From Anaerolineales bacterium (GTDB lineage: Bacteria > Chloroflexota > Anaerolineae > Anaerolineales > E44-bin32), in contig WVZH01000465.1 of the NCBI GenBank assembly GCA_011772595.1, positions 33,109 through 39,880 on the forward strand: 6,772 bases of DNA, read 5' to 3'. Shown here in pieces: positions 569 through 6,595 of the stretch. Position 1 is the first letter of the stretch. Every line of letters begins with the position of its first letter. Position numbers and translations under genes: made by a program. Under the pieces are notes generated by a model. That model saw only the letters and a list, made by a program, of their open reading frames with translations, did no database searches and was not told where the DNA came from.

Positions 569-976
569 TCAATTGGTCTGTAGGACCGGGCGAAACTTGT
601 ATCCGTAAACGAGCATGCCCCGGTCGCCGTCAGAGTGCAGTTTCCGTGTGATCATCTCCACCGGCATGCCTACTTCGACGGGTTGTTCCTGCTCGTCAAT
701 ATCCGTAAGCTGAGCCGTGACCATGGGGCCCTCTTCAAGTTTAACCAGGGCGATGGTATATGGAGCCTGCTCCTGGTGACCGGTAGGAGCCTGGTAAACG
801 GTGGTGTAGGAATAAACCTCACCGCGGCCGCTGAACGAATAAAGAGTCCTTGCATCTTCGCCGCAATCTGGACAAATATCCCGGGGTGGGAAGATTTTTT
901 CCTGACAGTTGGGACAGATTTCGCCCACAAGCGCATAGCGCTGCTTCTTTAATCGCCAGTGCCGTGATAATTCCAT
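569..976 (-). CDS. DUF35 Zn-ribbon/OB-fold protein, partner of the thiolase and HMG-CoA synthase
   Basis: This 135-residue protein has full family length. An N-terminal helix with WRLKKQRY (7-14) precedes a four-cysteine zinc ribbon (C21, C24, C35, C38; CPNC and CPDC knuckles). An OB-fold-like beta domain follows (about 46-125; GRGEVYSYTTVYQAP, then a LVKLEEGPMVTAQL strand pair). In the methanogen thiolase/HMG-CoA synthase complex, DUF35 bridges the two enzymes and frames a shared CoA-binding channel; in steroid degraders, DUF35 domains support the Ltp2 aldolase. The adjacent thiolase and synthase genes here point to the first role. AAGAGG (987-982) lies 5 bases before the ATG. It is the last gene of the operon, 92 bp after the thiolase stop. 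It is likely structural rather than catalytic. Confidence 0.9.
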   Translation of the reverse strand: MELSRHWRLKKQRYALVGEICPNCQEKIFPPRDICPDCGEDARTLYSFSGRGEVYSYTTVYQAPTGHQEQAPYTIALVKLEEGPMVTAQLTDIDEQEQPVEVGMPVEMITRKLHSDGDRGMLVYGYKFRPVLQTN

Positions 977-1044: not shown

Positions 1045-1074
1045 CTCTCAAGAGCTATCAACTTCCTCTCAAGA
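1045..1074. repeat. Short direct repeat at the thiolase 3' end
   Basis: The 9-mer CTCTCAAGA occurs at 1045-1053 and again at 1066-1074. The copies are 21 bp apart, about two helical turns, and the second overlaps the thiolase stop codon. The rest of the 92-bp gap to the DUF35 gene has no convincing promoter or terminator. The repeat may be chance. Confidence 0.35.
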
Positions 1075-2262
1075 CCCTTCGATACGTTCCAGGATGTGTG
1101 TGGCGACCGTTGCGCCTGTCCCGCCCAGGCATTGGGCCATGCCAATACGGGCGTTTGGTACCTGATTCCTACCCGCACGCCCCTGTAGTTGCAGGGTGAC
1201 CTCTGCAAGCTGGTACACACCCGTGGCGCCACCTGGGTCGCCTCGTGCTTTCGACCCCCCGAAGGTACATATCGGAATGTCTCCATCACGAGTTATGGCG
1301 TCGTTCTTTGCCAGCCGCCAACCTTCACCGCGTGTCGCGAAGCCCGCAGCTTCGAGGGAGAGTGCGGCGAAGATTGAGAAGCGGTCGTGCAACTCGAATA
1401 AGTGGATGTCTTCGGGTTTTGAGTCGGCGATTGCGTAGGCCTCCCTGGAAGAATCATTTACCGCTGTCAAGGTCAGGGGATCCGGACGGTCGTGGATGGA
1501 GACCGCCGTGATCGATGCCGAGGAGGCGGAGATACGAATCCTGGGTTGGGGGATGCTTTCGGGCATGGCGTCTGCACGCACAAGCATTAAGGCCGCGGCT
1601 CCGTCGGCGATGGGTGCAGCGTCGAACATGTTCACCGGTGCACTGATCATGGGTGCTTTTGAATAGGCGTTGATATCGATGGCGCGACGGTACATGGCGT
1701 TGGGATTATGGACAGCGTTGGCGTGTGCGGTGAGGCTGAAACCCGCAAAGGCATTCTCAGGCACATCGAACTCATGCAGATAACGCTGCATGAGAAGTGC
1801 GGCTTGGGCTGTGGCTGTGACTCCGTGCACGGCTTCGTAGTCTGCGTCGCTGGCCGTCGAAAGCGCAGCCTCGATCTCTGCGCTGGATCGATCGGTCACT
1901 TTTTCGACGCCCACGACGAGGGCCACATCGATGAACCCCGTAATGAGGGCTAGGTACGCTTGGCGCAGGGCTACCCCACCTGACGCGCCCGCGGCTTCGA
2001 CAGTGATTGCTTCAACGCCTCGTAAACCTGCGAAATCCGCCACCAGCGCGCCCAACTGACTCTGTTTGGAGAGGGAGGGGGCCAGCATGTTGGCGACGTA
2101 GAGTGCCTGCGGTTTGAGATTGGCTGCGTCGCTGCGTGCGGCGACAATCGCGTCCAGGGCTAGCTCGCGCAAGTGCTTTTCCCAATGCTCACCGACTGGC
2201 GTGATCCCCACGCCAGCGATCAGAACATCGTTCGGTTGAGTGGACTTCATTCCTGCTGTCAT
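1069..2262 (-). CDS. SCP2-like acetoacetyl-CoA thiolase homologue lacking the catalytic Cys and GHP His
   Basis: This 397-residue protein has the full length of the archaeal/SCP2-type thiolases that work with HMG-CoA synthase and DUF35. Recognisable motifs in order are an [13 protein letters not shown] start (15-27), YVANMLAP (55-62), VVGVEKVTD (116-124), LHDRF (291-295, H292 kept), GGATGVYQ (344-351) and CLGGTG (378-383, C378 kept). Family members normally read VEAACASGG, with the acyl-accepting cysteine. Here the codon at 1989-1987 is GGC, giving VEAAGASGG (G92). The usual GHP motif reads GDP, from GAC at 1239-1237 (D342). The frame is otherwise intact, so this is not an obvious pseudogene. 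The start ATG overlaps the synthase stop by 4 bases (ATGA) and has no good ribosome site, which implies translational coupling. The family is clear, but ordinary thiolase activity is doubtful; a scaffold or repurposed enzyme is likelier. Confidence 0.88.
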
Positions 2263-3332
2263 TTTTGTATCAATTTGCCACGGAAGCGAGAGTAGGTTGC
2301 ATAATCGATCTCTGTGCGTCGCTCGATGTAGCTCTGGGTCGAAGTGGCCTGGGTGCGACGTTGGGCCAATGATGGTGTCACCGTAAGGCTGAAGGCGTCT
2401 GAACCGGCACCCGATCCGTAGGAGACCAGCAACACGCGGTCTCCCGGCTGTGCAACATCCAGGATGGCCGTCAAGCCGACCAGAGCAGATCCAGCGTATG
2501 TGTTCCCAATCTTCGGAGCGAGCAATCCTGCCTGGATTTGCTCAGTTGTGAACCCAAGATTGCTGGCGACGCGTTGGGGAAATTTGGTATTCGGTTGATG
2601 GAAGACGGCGTGATGATACTCATCCGGTGCTGTATCCATAGCTTCCATCAAGGCCTCACTCGCAGCGATGATATGTTTGAAGTAAGCCGGCTCCCCTGTG
2701 AAGCGTTCCCCATGCTCGGGATATCTTTCGTAGGCGCGGCGGAAAAAATCGGGAGTGTCGGTGGCGAAGGAATAGGTTCCTTCGAACGTTGCGAGCGCCT
2801 CATCGGCTGGGCCGACCAAATAAGCTGCGCCACCGGCAGCTGCTGTGTATTCCAAGGCGTCTCCCGGGCGACCTTGAGCGATGTCCATGCCGATGGCGAG
2901 TGCGTACCGAGCCATGCCGGAACCTACGAAACCAATGGCAGCCTGAAGCGCCTCCGTCCCCGCCTTGCAGGCAAACTCCCAGTCCGCGGCCAACGTGTGG
3001 GGGGTGGCGCCGATGGCCTCCGCCACGACGGTCGATGACGGCTTTACCGCGTATGGATGGGATTCGGAACCCACCCACACGGCGCGGATCTCGGATGCAT
3101 CGACTTGCGCCCGGGCTAATGCATTGCGAGCCGCTTCGATTGACATCGTGATAACGTCTTCATCCAAACCGGCAACTGCCTTCTCCTCGACAGGAAGACT
3201 GCCACTACCGGCTTTCCAAACCCGTGCCACCTCACGTGCAGGCAACCGGTATCGAGGGATGTAGGCACCGTATCCAATTATGCCGACCCCTTGAAGTGGT
3301 TTAAACATGAGACTTGATTGTGTTTGTTCCAT
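2259..3332 (-). CDS. Hydroxymethylglutaryl-CoA synthase, archaeal type
   Basis: This cytosolic enzyme of 357 residues condenses acetyl-CoA with acetoacetyl-CoA to HMG-CoA in the mevalonate pathway. It matches the compact archaeal form (about 350 residues) along its whole length: [13 protein letters not shown] (17-29), [10 protein letters not shown] (89-98, E90), EFACKAGT (119-126, nucleophile C122), [15 protein letters not shown] (157-171), [14 protein letters not shown] (209-218), VFHQPN (243-248, H245), GNTYAG (276-281) and [10 protein letters not shown] (305-314). All three expected catalytic residues (Glu, Cys, His) are present. The Met at 9 is an alternative start nearer the usual family start, but it lacks a ribosome site; the chosen ATG has a weak CAGG 7 bases upstream. 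It follows the reductase gene by 80 bp and overlaps the thiolase start by 4 bases. I am confident of the function. Confidence 0.94.
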
Positions 3333-3412: not shown

Positions 3413-4708
3413 TCAGTTTTCGCTTTCCCATTCTTGCACCAGTTCTTGGGCCCGCTCAAGGTGCACGGCATCCTCGGACACCAACTGGTGAGCCACACGC
3501 GCCACCAACTCACCCTGCGCGCCGGCGGCGATAGCGACCTGACGTGCATGTAGTGTCATGTGACCGCGCTGAATCCCTTCTGTTGCCAGAGCTCGTAATG
3601 CAGCGAGGTTTTGTGCCAGGCCTACCGAGACGATGACTTCGGCCAACGAACGGGCATTGTCGATGCGCATCAATCGGAGGCAGGCTTTTGCTGCCGGGTG
3701 CACACGGGTAGCACCCCCGACGGTGCCTACAGCCATTGGCATCTCAAGTTCGCCTCTCAAATTGCCCTTTTCATCGGACCACCAGCGGCTGAGGGAGGTG
3801 TAATGACCCTCGCGGGCAGCGTACGCATGTGCGCCAGCTTCTACCGCTCGCCAATCATTGCCGGTCGCAATAAGAACGGCGTCCACTCCGTTCATGATTC
3901 CCTTGTTATGCGTCGCCGCGCGATAGGGGTCGGCGGCGGCAAAGGCCCACGCTTCTATGATGCCGTCACGCACTCGTTGTCCGTCGAAATCTTCGAAAGC
4001 CAGGGATGCGCTTGGGATGGTACAGCGTGCAAGCGCCAGCCGACGGTCAGCGAGATTGCTGAGAATACGAAGGTGTGCACGCCCTGTGGTCATCTCTTCG
4101 ACCCACGGTGTCAGACGCTCGGCGGCTGTGTTGAGGGTGTTGGCTCCCATAGCGTCGCGGGTATCGTAAACAAGGTGGATCACGAGCATGGGGCCAACGG
4201 GTGTGCTCTCCAGTATGCGTACTTCGATATCGCGTGCTCCTCCCCCCAAGCGTAGAATGATCGGATCGACACTATTGGCAATCTCCAGAGCTTCGGCCTT
4301 GTGCTCCAGAAGTTGAAGGCGTGCTGTTTCGAGATCGGGAATGTCCAGCACCTGAATTTGACCGATCATTTCGGGTTCGGTGGTCTTGGCTTCGAAGCCT
4401 CCATTGGCGCGAGCCAGTTTGGCCATGAATGAAGCGCCGGCAACGACGGAGGGCTCCTCGACGACCATAGGGACTAAGACATCCCGTCCGTTGATCAGGA
4501 AATTCGTGGCGATGCCCAGAGGTAATCCAAAGACTCCCACAACGTTCTCAATCATGTGATCTGCCAGCTGGAGGGTCAATCCGTCGATACCTTGCAGCGT
4601 TGCTACCGTTGTAGTGTCGAGGTCTGCGGATTTAGAGACCATGGCCATGCGCTGCTCGATCGGCAAGTTGTATAAACCCGATAGACTTGAAGAGTAATCG
4701 GAAGTCAT
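3413..4708 (-). CDS. Hydroxymethylglutaryl-CoA reductase, class II
   Basis: This enzyme interconverts HMG-CoA and mevalonate with two rounds of hydride transfer. Its 431 residues match the class II enzyme of Pseudomonas mevalonii (about 428) closely by eye. Landmarks are IENVVGVFGLP (53-63), INGRDVLVP (72-80), VVEEPS (82-87, catalytic E85), LGGGARDIEV (154-163), DAMGANTLNT (185-194), ATHNKGIMNG (265-274, catalytic K269), ATGNDWRAVEAG (281-292, catalytic D285), LEMPMAVG (321-328) and IQRGHMTLHAR (379-389, catalytic H383). D148 aligns with the Asp that makes the P. mevalonii enzyme prefer NAD(H). No membrane segment is seen, so it is soluble. GGGAG lies 7 bases before the ATG. It is first in the operon, ahead of HMG-CoA synthase, which favours a biosynthetic role over the mevalonate breakdown known in P. 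mevalonii. Confidence 0.95.
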   Translation of the reverse strand: MTSDYSSSLSGLYNLPIEQRMAMVSKSADLDTTTVATLQGIDGLTLQLADHMIENVVGVFGLPLGIATNFLINGRDVLVPMVVEEPSVVAGASFMAKLARANGGFEAKTTEPEMIGQIQVLDIPDLETARLQLLEHKAEALEIANSVDPIILRLGGGARDIEVRILESTPVGPMLVIHLVYDTRDAMGANTLNTAAERLTPWVEEMTTGRAHLRILSNLADRRLALARCTIPSASLAFEDFDGQRVRDGIIEAWAFAAADPYRAATHNKGIMNGVDAVLIATGNDWRAVEAGAHAYAAREGHYTSLSRWWSDEKGNLRGELEMPMAVGTVGGATRVHPAAKACLRLMRIDNARSLAEVIVSVGLAQNLAALRALATEGIQRGHMTLHARQVAIAAGAQGELVARVAHQLVSEDAVHLERAQELVQEWESEN

Positions 4709-4879: not shown

Positions 4880-6595
4880 GTGAGCGACGAAGAATCGAGA
4901 GTTGCGAAGGAAGAAGATCCTCAGTTGGAGGCTCCGACGGAAGAATCGCGAATGCGGTCACTCCATCGAGCCACGCTGAAACTTTTTGCCGACCTTTCAC
5001 TGGATGGGGTTCTTCGTCGTATCATCCATTCGGCACGAGAACTGGTTGGGGCACGCTACGCGGCTTTAGGAATCCCTGATGGCAAGGGGGGGTTAGAGAC
5101 TTTCCTGACACTCGGTCTCTCCAATAAGGAAATTCAGGCCATCACGCACGAGCCGGAAGGTAAAGGCCTCATCGGGGAGATGATGCGCACGGGCCAGAGT
5201 ATCCGAATCCCCAAAATATTGGAACATCCGCGATCTGTAGGTTTCCCGCCCGGTCATCCAGACATGCGTTCCTTTCTTGGCGTGCCCATATCCGCATACG
5301 GGCGACCCTTGGGCCAAATCTACCTCACGGATAAGCAGGGGGCGGACAGTTTCAGTATCGAGGACCAACGTCTGATCGAGATGTTGGCTTCCCACGCAGC
5401 TGCGGCCATCGAAAACGCCAGGCTTTACCGTCAGGTTCTGAATAGCGAGTCCGAGCTCACCCAGCGCAACCTTGAACTCGAGCTGATCAACGCTTTAGCC
5501 TCCGCAGTTAGTTCGACGATGGAGCTCGATGAGATCCTAGAGGTGATGCTGGAGAGAGTTATCCAACTGATTGGAGCGAAAGCCGGTGAAATCTTTCTCC
5601 TTGAGGAGGGGGAGGGCGTGTACCGAAAAGCGAATCATCATGGTGAGATTGTAGACGCCTTCTGGGAGGTAGATCGTTTCAGCTTTGGTGAAGGTTTCGT
5701 CGGTCGTGTCGCAAAGTTGGGAAAACCGGCTTGGACGAGCAGTCTTCACACCGAGCCCTCCCTTCTACGGGATGTATTTGCCGAAGTGGGGATAGGAACC
5801 ATGGTGGGAGTGCCACTTACCGCACCTGGGCAGGTCATGGGTGTGCTTTGTCTGGCCTTTACTGGGGAGCGTGTGGCACACGAACGCGAAATCGGGCTCC
5901 TTGAAGCGGTAGGCGCTGGGGTTGGGATTGCTATCGAGAACGCAAGGTTGTATCGCCATGCCCGTCGTCTGGCCGTACTAGAGGAGCGAGAACGCATCGC
6001 GATGGACCTGCACGATGGGACGATCCAATCTATCTATGCGGTCGGTTTGATCCTCGAATATGTCCGTCTCCTGATTCAAGAAAAGCCGGATCAAGCAGTG
6101 GAACGCCTTGAACAGGCAATCACCGGCTTGAATCAAGCGATCGGAGATATTCGCTCCTACATTCTCGATTTGCAACCGAGTCGCATTCAGATGGACGATC
6201 TCGGGCAAGCGCTAGATCGTCTCAGGCGTGAGTTTCGTGCCAATACACTCGTGGACGTGGAGTTGAAAACCGAAGAGGAAGTTTTGCAGGAAATCTCGCG
6301 CCCGGCAGCTATGGAACTCTTCCTCATCGCTCAGGAAGCCCTTGCCAACGTAGCCAAACACGCTCATGCCACTCAGGTCATGCTCAGCGTGCGTCGTATC
6401 GGAGACGATATCTCTCTACAGGTTATCGACAACGGTAAGGGTTTCGAGGTTGAGAAGCAACCGGACGTCTTGGGTCATGGACTTTCCAACATGGAAGAGC
6501 GAGCACGCCACGTTGGGGGACAGCTCGAGATTATCTCCAGCCCAGGTGAGGGCACTACCATCACGGTGCGACTGCCGCTGGATGGTGTTTCCTGA
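4880..6595 (+). CDS. Soluble two-GAF sensor histidine kinase (HisKA_3 type, DevS/NarX-like)
   Basis: This is a 571-residue two-component sensor kinase with no membrane segment or signal peptide, so it is cytosolic. Domains in order are an acidic N-terminal tail (1-25), GAF1 (about 40-178), a linker helix, GAF2 (about 212-355), a HisKA_3 dimerisation domain with phospho-acceptor H378 (ERERIAMDLHDG, 369-380), and an HATPase_c domain (about 475-567). The ATPase has the N-box EALANVAKH (486-494), DNGKGF (517-522), GHGLSN (532-537) and GEGTT (556-560). Both GAF domains end in the same AIENARLYR helix (176-184, 351-359). GAF1 carries GFPPGHPDM (121-129), resembling the haem-binding GAF of mycobacterial DevS/DosS; H126 could be the ligand, but this is unproven. 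The GTG start is chosen because GGAGG lies 5 bases upstream; the next ATG (residue 25) lacks such a site. The expected partner, a NarL-type response regulator, is not in the window. Confidence 0.93.
   Translation: MSDEESRVAKEEDPQLEAPTEESRMRSLHRATLKLFADLSLDGVLRRIIHSARELVGARYAALGIPDGKGGLETFLTLGLSNKEIQAITHEPEGKGLIGEMMRTGQSIRIPKILEHPRSVGFPPGHPDMRSFLGVPISAYGRPLGQIYLTDKQGADSFSIEDQRLIEMLASHAAAAIENARLYRQVLNSESELTQRNLELELINALASAVSSTMELDEILEVMLERVIQLIGAKAGEIFLLEEGEGVYRKANHHGEIVDAFWEVDRFSFGEGFVGRVAKLGKPAWTSSLHTEPSLLRDVFAEVGIGTMVGVPLTAPGQVMGVLCLAFTGERVAHEREIGLLEAVGAGVGIAIENARLYRHARRLAVLEERERIAMDLHDGTIQSIYAVGLILEYVRLLIQEKPDQAVERLEQAITGLNQAIGDIRSYILDLQPSRIQMDDLGQALDRLRREFRANTLVDVELKTEEEVLQEISRPAAMELFLIAQEALANVAKHAHATQVMLSVRRIGDDISLQVIDNGKGFEVEKQPDVLGHGLSNMEERARHVGGQLEIISSPGEGTTITVRLPLDGVS

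Follow-up and report, generated by a model that had tools for sequence, protein, structure and literature searches.

Described systems and classification of the locus

The closest described system is the three-part complex of thiolase, 3-hydroxy-3-methylglutaryl-coenzyme A synthase (HMGS) and DUF35 protein solved as 6ESQ. According to PMC12329534, thiolase and HMGS share a coenzyme A (CoA) site and acetoacetyl-CoA is not released, and PMC6392133 describes Cys85 of 6ESQ as the active Cys and names Cys114 and Glu82 of HMGS as essential. An archaeal-type mevalonate pathway is already reported from some Chloroflexota (PMC13001223). The locus described here belongs to an Anaerolineales bacterium of this phylum (assembly GCA_011772595.1, contig WVZH01000465.1, positions 33,109 to 39,880 of the forward strand); the whole stretch of 6,772 nucleotides is called the window. 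Genes for a thiolase-like protein, an HMGS and a DUF35 protein are adjacent in it, each matching its 6ESQ subunit. However, the 6ESQ thiolase has Cys85 and the His of its GHALGATG motif, and the window subunit has counterparts of neither. Judged by sequence, the locus is a variant within a known complex type, with the thiolase half degenerate and the HMGS half intact. The thiolase-like protein is probably (at roughly 0.72) a pseudothiolase, an archaeal-type thiolase subunit minus Cys and His that would be kept as a structural and CoA-docking part of the complex. No Cys-less HMGS-linked thiolase was described in the titles and abstracts searched, a search outside which most subscription papers fall.

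The Friedel-Crafts acylase PhlABC (PDB 5M3K) resembles the window in its three-part layout, with one thiolase-fold subunit without catalytic residues, and both the catalytically dead and the other subunits are held in PMC6392133 to be necessary for a working complex. It is a mirror image, since the HMGS-like PhlA is without Cys and Glu and the thiolase-like PhlC keeps Cys88 and His; the reverse was found in the window, where HMGS is intact and the thiolase appears dead. The steroid aldolases Sal and Ltp2 (PDB 9MYR, 6OK1) also combine a thiolase fold with a DUF35 partner, and CtSal is reported to have Gly at the Cys place (PMC12329534). They differ in the Tyr of a Y-D-x-F/Y motif and in their partners, which are steroid hydratases and not HMGS; Tyr302 and Cys304 of CtSal (PMC12329534) stand against His and Arg at those motif places in the window. 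TbSLP, an SCP2-thiolase-like protein (SLP; PDB 5AB6, 5AB7), was crystallized with acetoacetyl-CoA and malonyl-CoA. Because Sals and SLPs are reported to share none of the five Cys of SCP-2 thiolases (PMC12329534), these crystals indicate that the thiolase Cys is not indispensable for binding. TbSLP differs in having no DUF35 partner and a Tyr in its YDCF motif, and its thiolase function is called doubtful (PMC12329534). ST0096 of Sulfolobus tokodaii (PDB 4YZO) is an archaeal protein of thiolase fold in which Ser aligns with the Cys; it differs in that the GHP His is retained.

Catalytic residues and closest homologues

Residue 92 of the thiolase-like protein is Gly and sits in VEAAGASGG. No gap interrupts the alignment with 7YVY and 6ESQ, both thiolases, at this point, and their Cys (EAACASG) falls in the same column, which confirms the earlier note's claim that the nucleophilic Cys is lost in an intact frame. 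The catalytic His, whose loss was overlooked in that note, is also replaced: the 7YVY motif GGLKARGHPVGATG was aligned with the window counterpart, and the His position is Asp342. The HDxF motif reads HDRF in the window. The reading frame has two candidate starts. ATG 2262 gives 397 residues and the 4-base overlap with the HMGS gene (2262-2259) reported earlier; the database copy of the window's own protein (P0001, 393 residues) fits a start at Met residue 5 (ATG 2250), and with that start there is no overlap. The thiolase fold is present. The scores against PRK06064 (379.5 bits) and AcCoTHIOL_METTL (317.4) are below the curated NCBIfam cut-offs of 420 and 600, respectively. The best solved match is the 6ESQ subunit by VIA-align Z, among the matches listed, and 7YVY by sequence and by Foldseek E-value.

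A homologue search scored 7,999 candidates, 7,913 of them at E ≤ 1e-30. The best 120 of these 7,913 were aligned with the window protein (121 rows); one of them is P0001, leaving 119 others. Residue 92 is Gly in 114 rows and Glu in 7, so that Cys is found in none of the 119 other homologues. Position 342 is Asp in 92 rows, Glu in 28 and Asn in 1, with the catalytic His in 0 of 121. The loss of catalytic residues is thus old, real and, as described below, recurrent, and concerns one subunit of a known complex. Recent loss, one of the readings offered earlier, does not fit these counts or the single tree group formed by the Chloroflexota copies. The source name of many of the listed homologues is acetyl-CoA C-acetyltransferase. 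Classical thiolases have a second Cys in a C-terminal motif similar to that around Cys378 of the window protein. This residue is present in 103 of the 121 rows (two being the window protein itself), in 31 of 110 Cys-less copies and in 0 of 65 Cys-bearing copies, which have Asn or Ser there.

Distribution and sampling

A set of 251 Chloroflexota genomes, drawn evenly, was sampled through HMGS and hence with no selection for the thiolase. HMGS was found in 53 genomes. Besides G002 (locus L002, Gly/Asp at the Cys and His places), 52 loci were fetched, and a linked thiolase could be scored in 50: 42 are without Cys and 8 retain both catalytic residues. The two loci without a state are L201 (identical to L058, Gly/Asp) and L202 (contig ends). 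HMGS was found in 29/29 genomes of a small archaeal phylum (20 loci fetched) and in 57/79 genomes of Asgard archaea (20 loci fetched, 14 of them with a thiolase inside the fetched stretch). Both archaeal groups mix states: Gly, Asn, Asp or Glu replaces the Cys, and the His position holds His, Asn, Asp or Tyr, beside intact copies. Recurrence in several archaeal lineages was not part of the earlier note. In six of the 20 Asgard loci (L226, L228, L230, L231, L233, L241) no thiolase gene lies in the approximately 3 kb fetched downstream of HMGS.

Residue 92 was tabulated beside HMGS as had been proposed in that note, and 109 of 136 HMGS-linked copies are without Cys: 98 lack both residues, 11 keep only the His and 27 keep both. 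Among 40 copies away from HMGS, 38 keep both residues and 2 lack both; these two (L011, L027) lie at contig ends with the neighbour out of view. The 176 compared sequences pool biased and unbiased samples: the search behind L001-L070 started from the window's own Cys-less protein and is biased to it, and L151-L202 were found via HMGS and are unbiased. A Cys-bearing query yielded the second copies L243-L262, of which 20 were picked by hand; this favours intact ones. A Cys without the His was seen in 0 of the 176, which fits a loss of Cys first. L057, counted as Cys-less, has an alignment gap at 92 with the surrounding residues missing.

Twelve sequences (L066, L067, L068, L069, L111, L112, L113, L115, L116, L117, L118, L119) were left out as partial or as members of other thiolase-like families, together with L246 (another family, Thr), L256 (frame misread), the fragment L120 and identical copies. 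Among them both residues are present in L117, the Cys is seen in L066, L112 and L113 where readable, and L067 has Gly. In the distant Myxococcota protein L068 (30% identity) the Cys is combined with Glu in the His column, the sole case of Cys without His seen. L115, L116, L111 and L119, from the same genomes, belong to other thiolase-like families, in which Pro or Thr replaces the Cys; the GHP His is retained in the first three and L119 is cut there. In the Heimdallarchaeota genome G030, L100 (G030:C158) is an extra thiolase-like copy beside a DUF35-type gene, with no HMGS hit and one stop in the aligned stretch.

Conservation, partners and selection

Four columns (92, 342, 295 and 337) are conserved at ≥ 93% in Cys-bearing copies (52 rows) and at < 50% in Cys-less copies (65 rows); columns 295 and 337 fall inside the HDxF and GGLKARGHP motifs. 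Conservation of ≥ 93% in both sets is found in 35 columns. The HMGS partners retain Cys122 in 135, Glu90 in 135 and His245 in 136 of 136, that is, in every readable case (L038 is truncated). The ratio of nonsynonymous to synonymous substitution rates (dN/dS) ranges from 0.035 to 0.19 in all 19 Cys-less pairs with usable dS, and is 0.041, 0.153 and 0.208 in three pairs that bear the Cys. Two window pairs were saturated, so selection was measured in relatives. A protein that has lost its catalytic residues but elsewhere stays under purifying selection is, as far as sequences can tell, a pseudoenzyme kept by selection.

A loss of DUF35 in Anaerolineaceae was suggested by the loci and is made unlikely by a gene of the DUF35 family, not necessarily that of the complex, elsewhere in 16/16 genomes. 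In all, such a gene was found in 18/18 genomes searched, of which 16 had been picked because none was visible at the locus and two (G016, G018) do carry DUF35 at the locus.

Tree and number of changes

A quick tree of 118 rows was calculated without bootstrap and with the catalytic columns excluded. The Cys-less copies from Chloroflexota fall into a single 51-row group (Shimodaira-Hasegawa-like approximate likelihood ratio 88, not starred), adjoined by Cys-bearing copies that are HMGS-linked or free-standing. Archaeal Cys-less copies are placed elsewhere. The Cys site must have changed at least 6 times in this tree, in Chloroflexota and several archaeal lineages, with 5 independent pairs on well-supported branches; such counts are blind to loss versus gain, and knowledge of the family suggests loss as the direction. 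L194 is on a long branch.

Other thiolases

The classical thiolase family TIGR01930 was sought in 80 of the 86 first-listed genomes (G007, G284, G292, G301, G306 and G312 being left out). Among 50 Chloroflexota genomes, 49 with a scored linked copy, it is present in 42/42 with a Cys-less copy versus 4/7 with a Cys-bearing copy (Fisher p 0.0019, kinship ignored). The three scored genomes without it all have Cys in the linked copy. G007 (Cys and His) also has a classical thiolase, and counting it, 5/8 Cys-bearing Chloroflexota have one. The earlier proposal that acetoacetyl-CoA must come from another source if thiolase activity is lost is supported. TIGR01930 was found in 27 of the first 30 genomes and is missing in G015, with an intact linked copy, in G016, with a linked Glu/Phe copy and the intact archaeal-type L110, and in G030, with a linked Glu/Tyr copy and the intact L117. 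Another complete thiolase is thus present in nearly all genomes tested. G001 and G002, the nearest relatives of the window, carry a classical thiolase. All 20 classical thiolases fetched have the Cys motif and NEAF, and 18 the GHP His by the pattern used. Cys and His were seen in 18 of the 20 archaeal-type second copies fetched; L246 is the member of another family with Thr, and L256 shows the GHP His. The Cys-bearing paralogues L109 and L101 were considered as possible members of a beta-oxidation set, and no such set was seen in their eight neighbours, two of which are lipid-type acyltransferases.

Proposed role of the thiolase-like subunit

In the solved complex all three proteins take part in building the CoA site, so HMGS would still need the thiolase-like subunit to hold the CoA of acetoacetyl-CoA, and an HMGS of this type would bind acetoacetyl-CoA poorly without the thiolase and DUF35 subunits. 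Acetoacetyl-CoA would be made by a separate, free thiolase and would dock at the shared site, where HMGS would condense it with acetyl-CoA. Once supplied in this way, the thiolase half would no longer need catalysis, yet would have to hold CoA. The equilibrium of thiolase is unfavourable in the direction of synthesis. An active thiolase at the dock would cleave acetoacetyl-CoA with CoA, so loss of the Cys may be favoured; loss of Cys and His would keep the complex from cleaving the incoming acetoacetyl-CoA. A more tentative proposal, which may well be wrong, is that a channelled complex was uncoupled repeatedly, apparently at least 5 times, in Bacteria and Archaea. Selection might have removed the Cys first and the His second where a free thiolase supplied the substrate, and the dead thiolase might be an adaptation that lets a pair built for channelling use the cellular pool.

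The kept pseudoenzyme put forward in the earlier note, holding together with synthase and DUF35, therefore gains support as a reading from the loss of both residues, its recurrence, the conserved fold, neighbourhood and partners, the intact HMGS active site, the selection on the gene and the second thiolases. Several observations weigh against it. The dN/dS of HMGS in the matching pairs is 0.009-0.118, and that of the thiolase-like gene is higher in 16/19. In 4/30 genomes the best copy has one stop in the aligned stretch, with an open frame of at least 377 residues each. The evidence for thiolase supply comes from relatives, the window's own genome lying outside the search. The association of a classical thiolase with Cys loss was not significant in the two archaeal groups (p 0.12 and 0.30), since a second archaeal-type copy takes its place in several Cys-less genomes. 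In the Asgard genome G382 (locus L242, Asn/Asp) no other thiolase was found even by the broad Thiolase_N model, and G382 is either an incomplete assembly or a counterexample. Paired tests of Cys with His and of Cys loss with linkage reached no significance with 5 to 6 usable pairs. Finally, function and complex formation are inferred from support at the level of sequence.

If the subunit is inactive, the first mevalonate step is misassigned in several archaeal lineages and in most of the sampled Chloroflexota with this HMGS. A complex credited with channelling an intermediate would then operate there without producing it. Such complexes with one dead half, a mirror image of PhlABC, would form a natural series for probing the purpose of the shared CoA site, and Cys-bearing relatives could serve as controls.

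Alternative explanations

The subunit may instead have been repurposed for another acyl-CoA reaction (aldol/retro-aldol or decarboxylation), as in Ltp2 and Sal, with new catalytic residues, perhaps Cys378 in the window's clade. CtSal, with a DUF35 partner and Gly at the Cys place, is reported as an active aldolase (PMC12329534), and the frequency of Cys378 in the 121 rows points the same way. Its presence in just 31 of 110 Cys-less copies argues against a generally moved nucleophile. The replacements are varied (Gly, Asp, Glu, Asn or Gln at 92; Asp, Asn, Phe, Tyr or a retained His at 342), so that no common new active site is visible, and the gene remains beside HMGS. His292 occupies the place of the aldolase Tyr in the window protein, which rejects an Ltp2/Sal identity for it (aldolase chemistry like that of Ltp2 had been offered earlier), and Tyr is found there in just 3/110 Cys-less copies. 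Repurposing is therefore considered unlikely.

Cys-less subunit and Cys-bearing paralogue might also form a mixed thiolase with one active and one regulatory subunit, comparable to the pairing of alpha and beta ketosynthase (KS-alpha/KS-beta) in type II polyketide synthases. Both forms do occur in many Anaerolineae. The idea is nevertheless improbable, as a single archaeal-type copy (E ≤ 1e-10), Cys-less, is found in G001 (a near relative of the window), G020, G023, G024, G025 and G026, all of which also have classical thiolases; records among the last five are named Chloroflexaceae, Roseiflexus, Chloroflexales and Herpetosiphonaceae. Neither HMGS nor DUF35 is among the eight neighbours of the paralogues L109 and L101.

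Decay toward loss, with the gene persisting merely by its position beside HMGS, would agree with clades in which three catalytic elements are gone (e.g. Glu92/Phe342 with Ser292), with the long branch of L194 and with the dN/dS above that of HMGS in 16/19 pairs. It is judged very improbable in view of the low dN/dS in all 19 usable Cys-less pairs, the Cys-less tree group of 51 rows and the retention of the gene even where DUF35 is not adjacent. A one-base sequencing or assembly error, conceivable as GGC is one base from TGC, is dismissed because the Cys and the His are each found in 0/121 rows.

Neighbouring genes and coordinates

The window HMGS residues Cys122 and Glu90 align with Cys114 and Glu82 of 6ESQ. 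The features of the locus are listed in Table 1.

Table 1. Features of the mevalonate locus in the window
Feature	Position	Strand	Basis or remark
Thiolase-like protein, putative catalytically degenerate archaeal-type acetoacetyl-CoA thiolase subunit	1069..2262	(-)	Intact open reading frame 2262-1069 of 397 aa
Codon GGC for Gly92 instead of nucleophilic Cys	1987..1989 (codon 1989-1987)	(-)	Codon reading and alignment
Codon GAC, Asp342, in place of catalytic His of GHPxGATG	1237..1239 (codon 1239-1237)	(-)	Codon reading and alignment
His292 of HDxF motif, retained in window	1387..1389	(-)	Gone in 61/110 Cys-less copies
Cys378	1129..1131	(-)	Alignment of close relatives
Archaeal-type HMG-CoA synthase	2259..3332	(-)	Cys122, Glu90 and His245 retained; best solved sequence match is HMGCS subunit of 6ESQ
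DUF35 protein, ChsH2-type zinc ribbon and OB fold	569..976	(-)	Best solved sequence match is DUF35 subunit of 6ESQ
HMG-CoA reductase (TIGR00532), next pathway step	3413..4708	(-)	Upstream, same direction

The HMG-CoA reductase matches a model named degradative, despite adjoining an archaeal-type HMGS. A GAF-GAF-HisKA_3 sensor histidine kinase (4880-6595, plus strand) diverges from the mevalonate genes.
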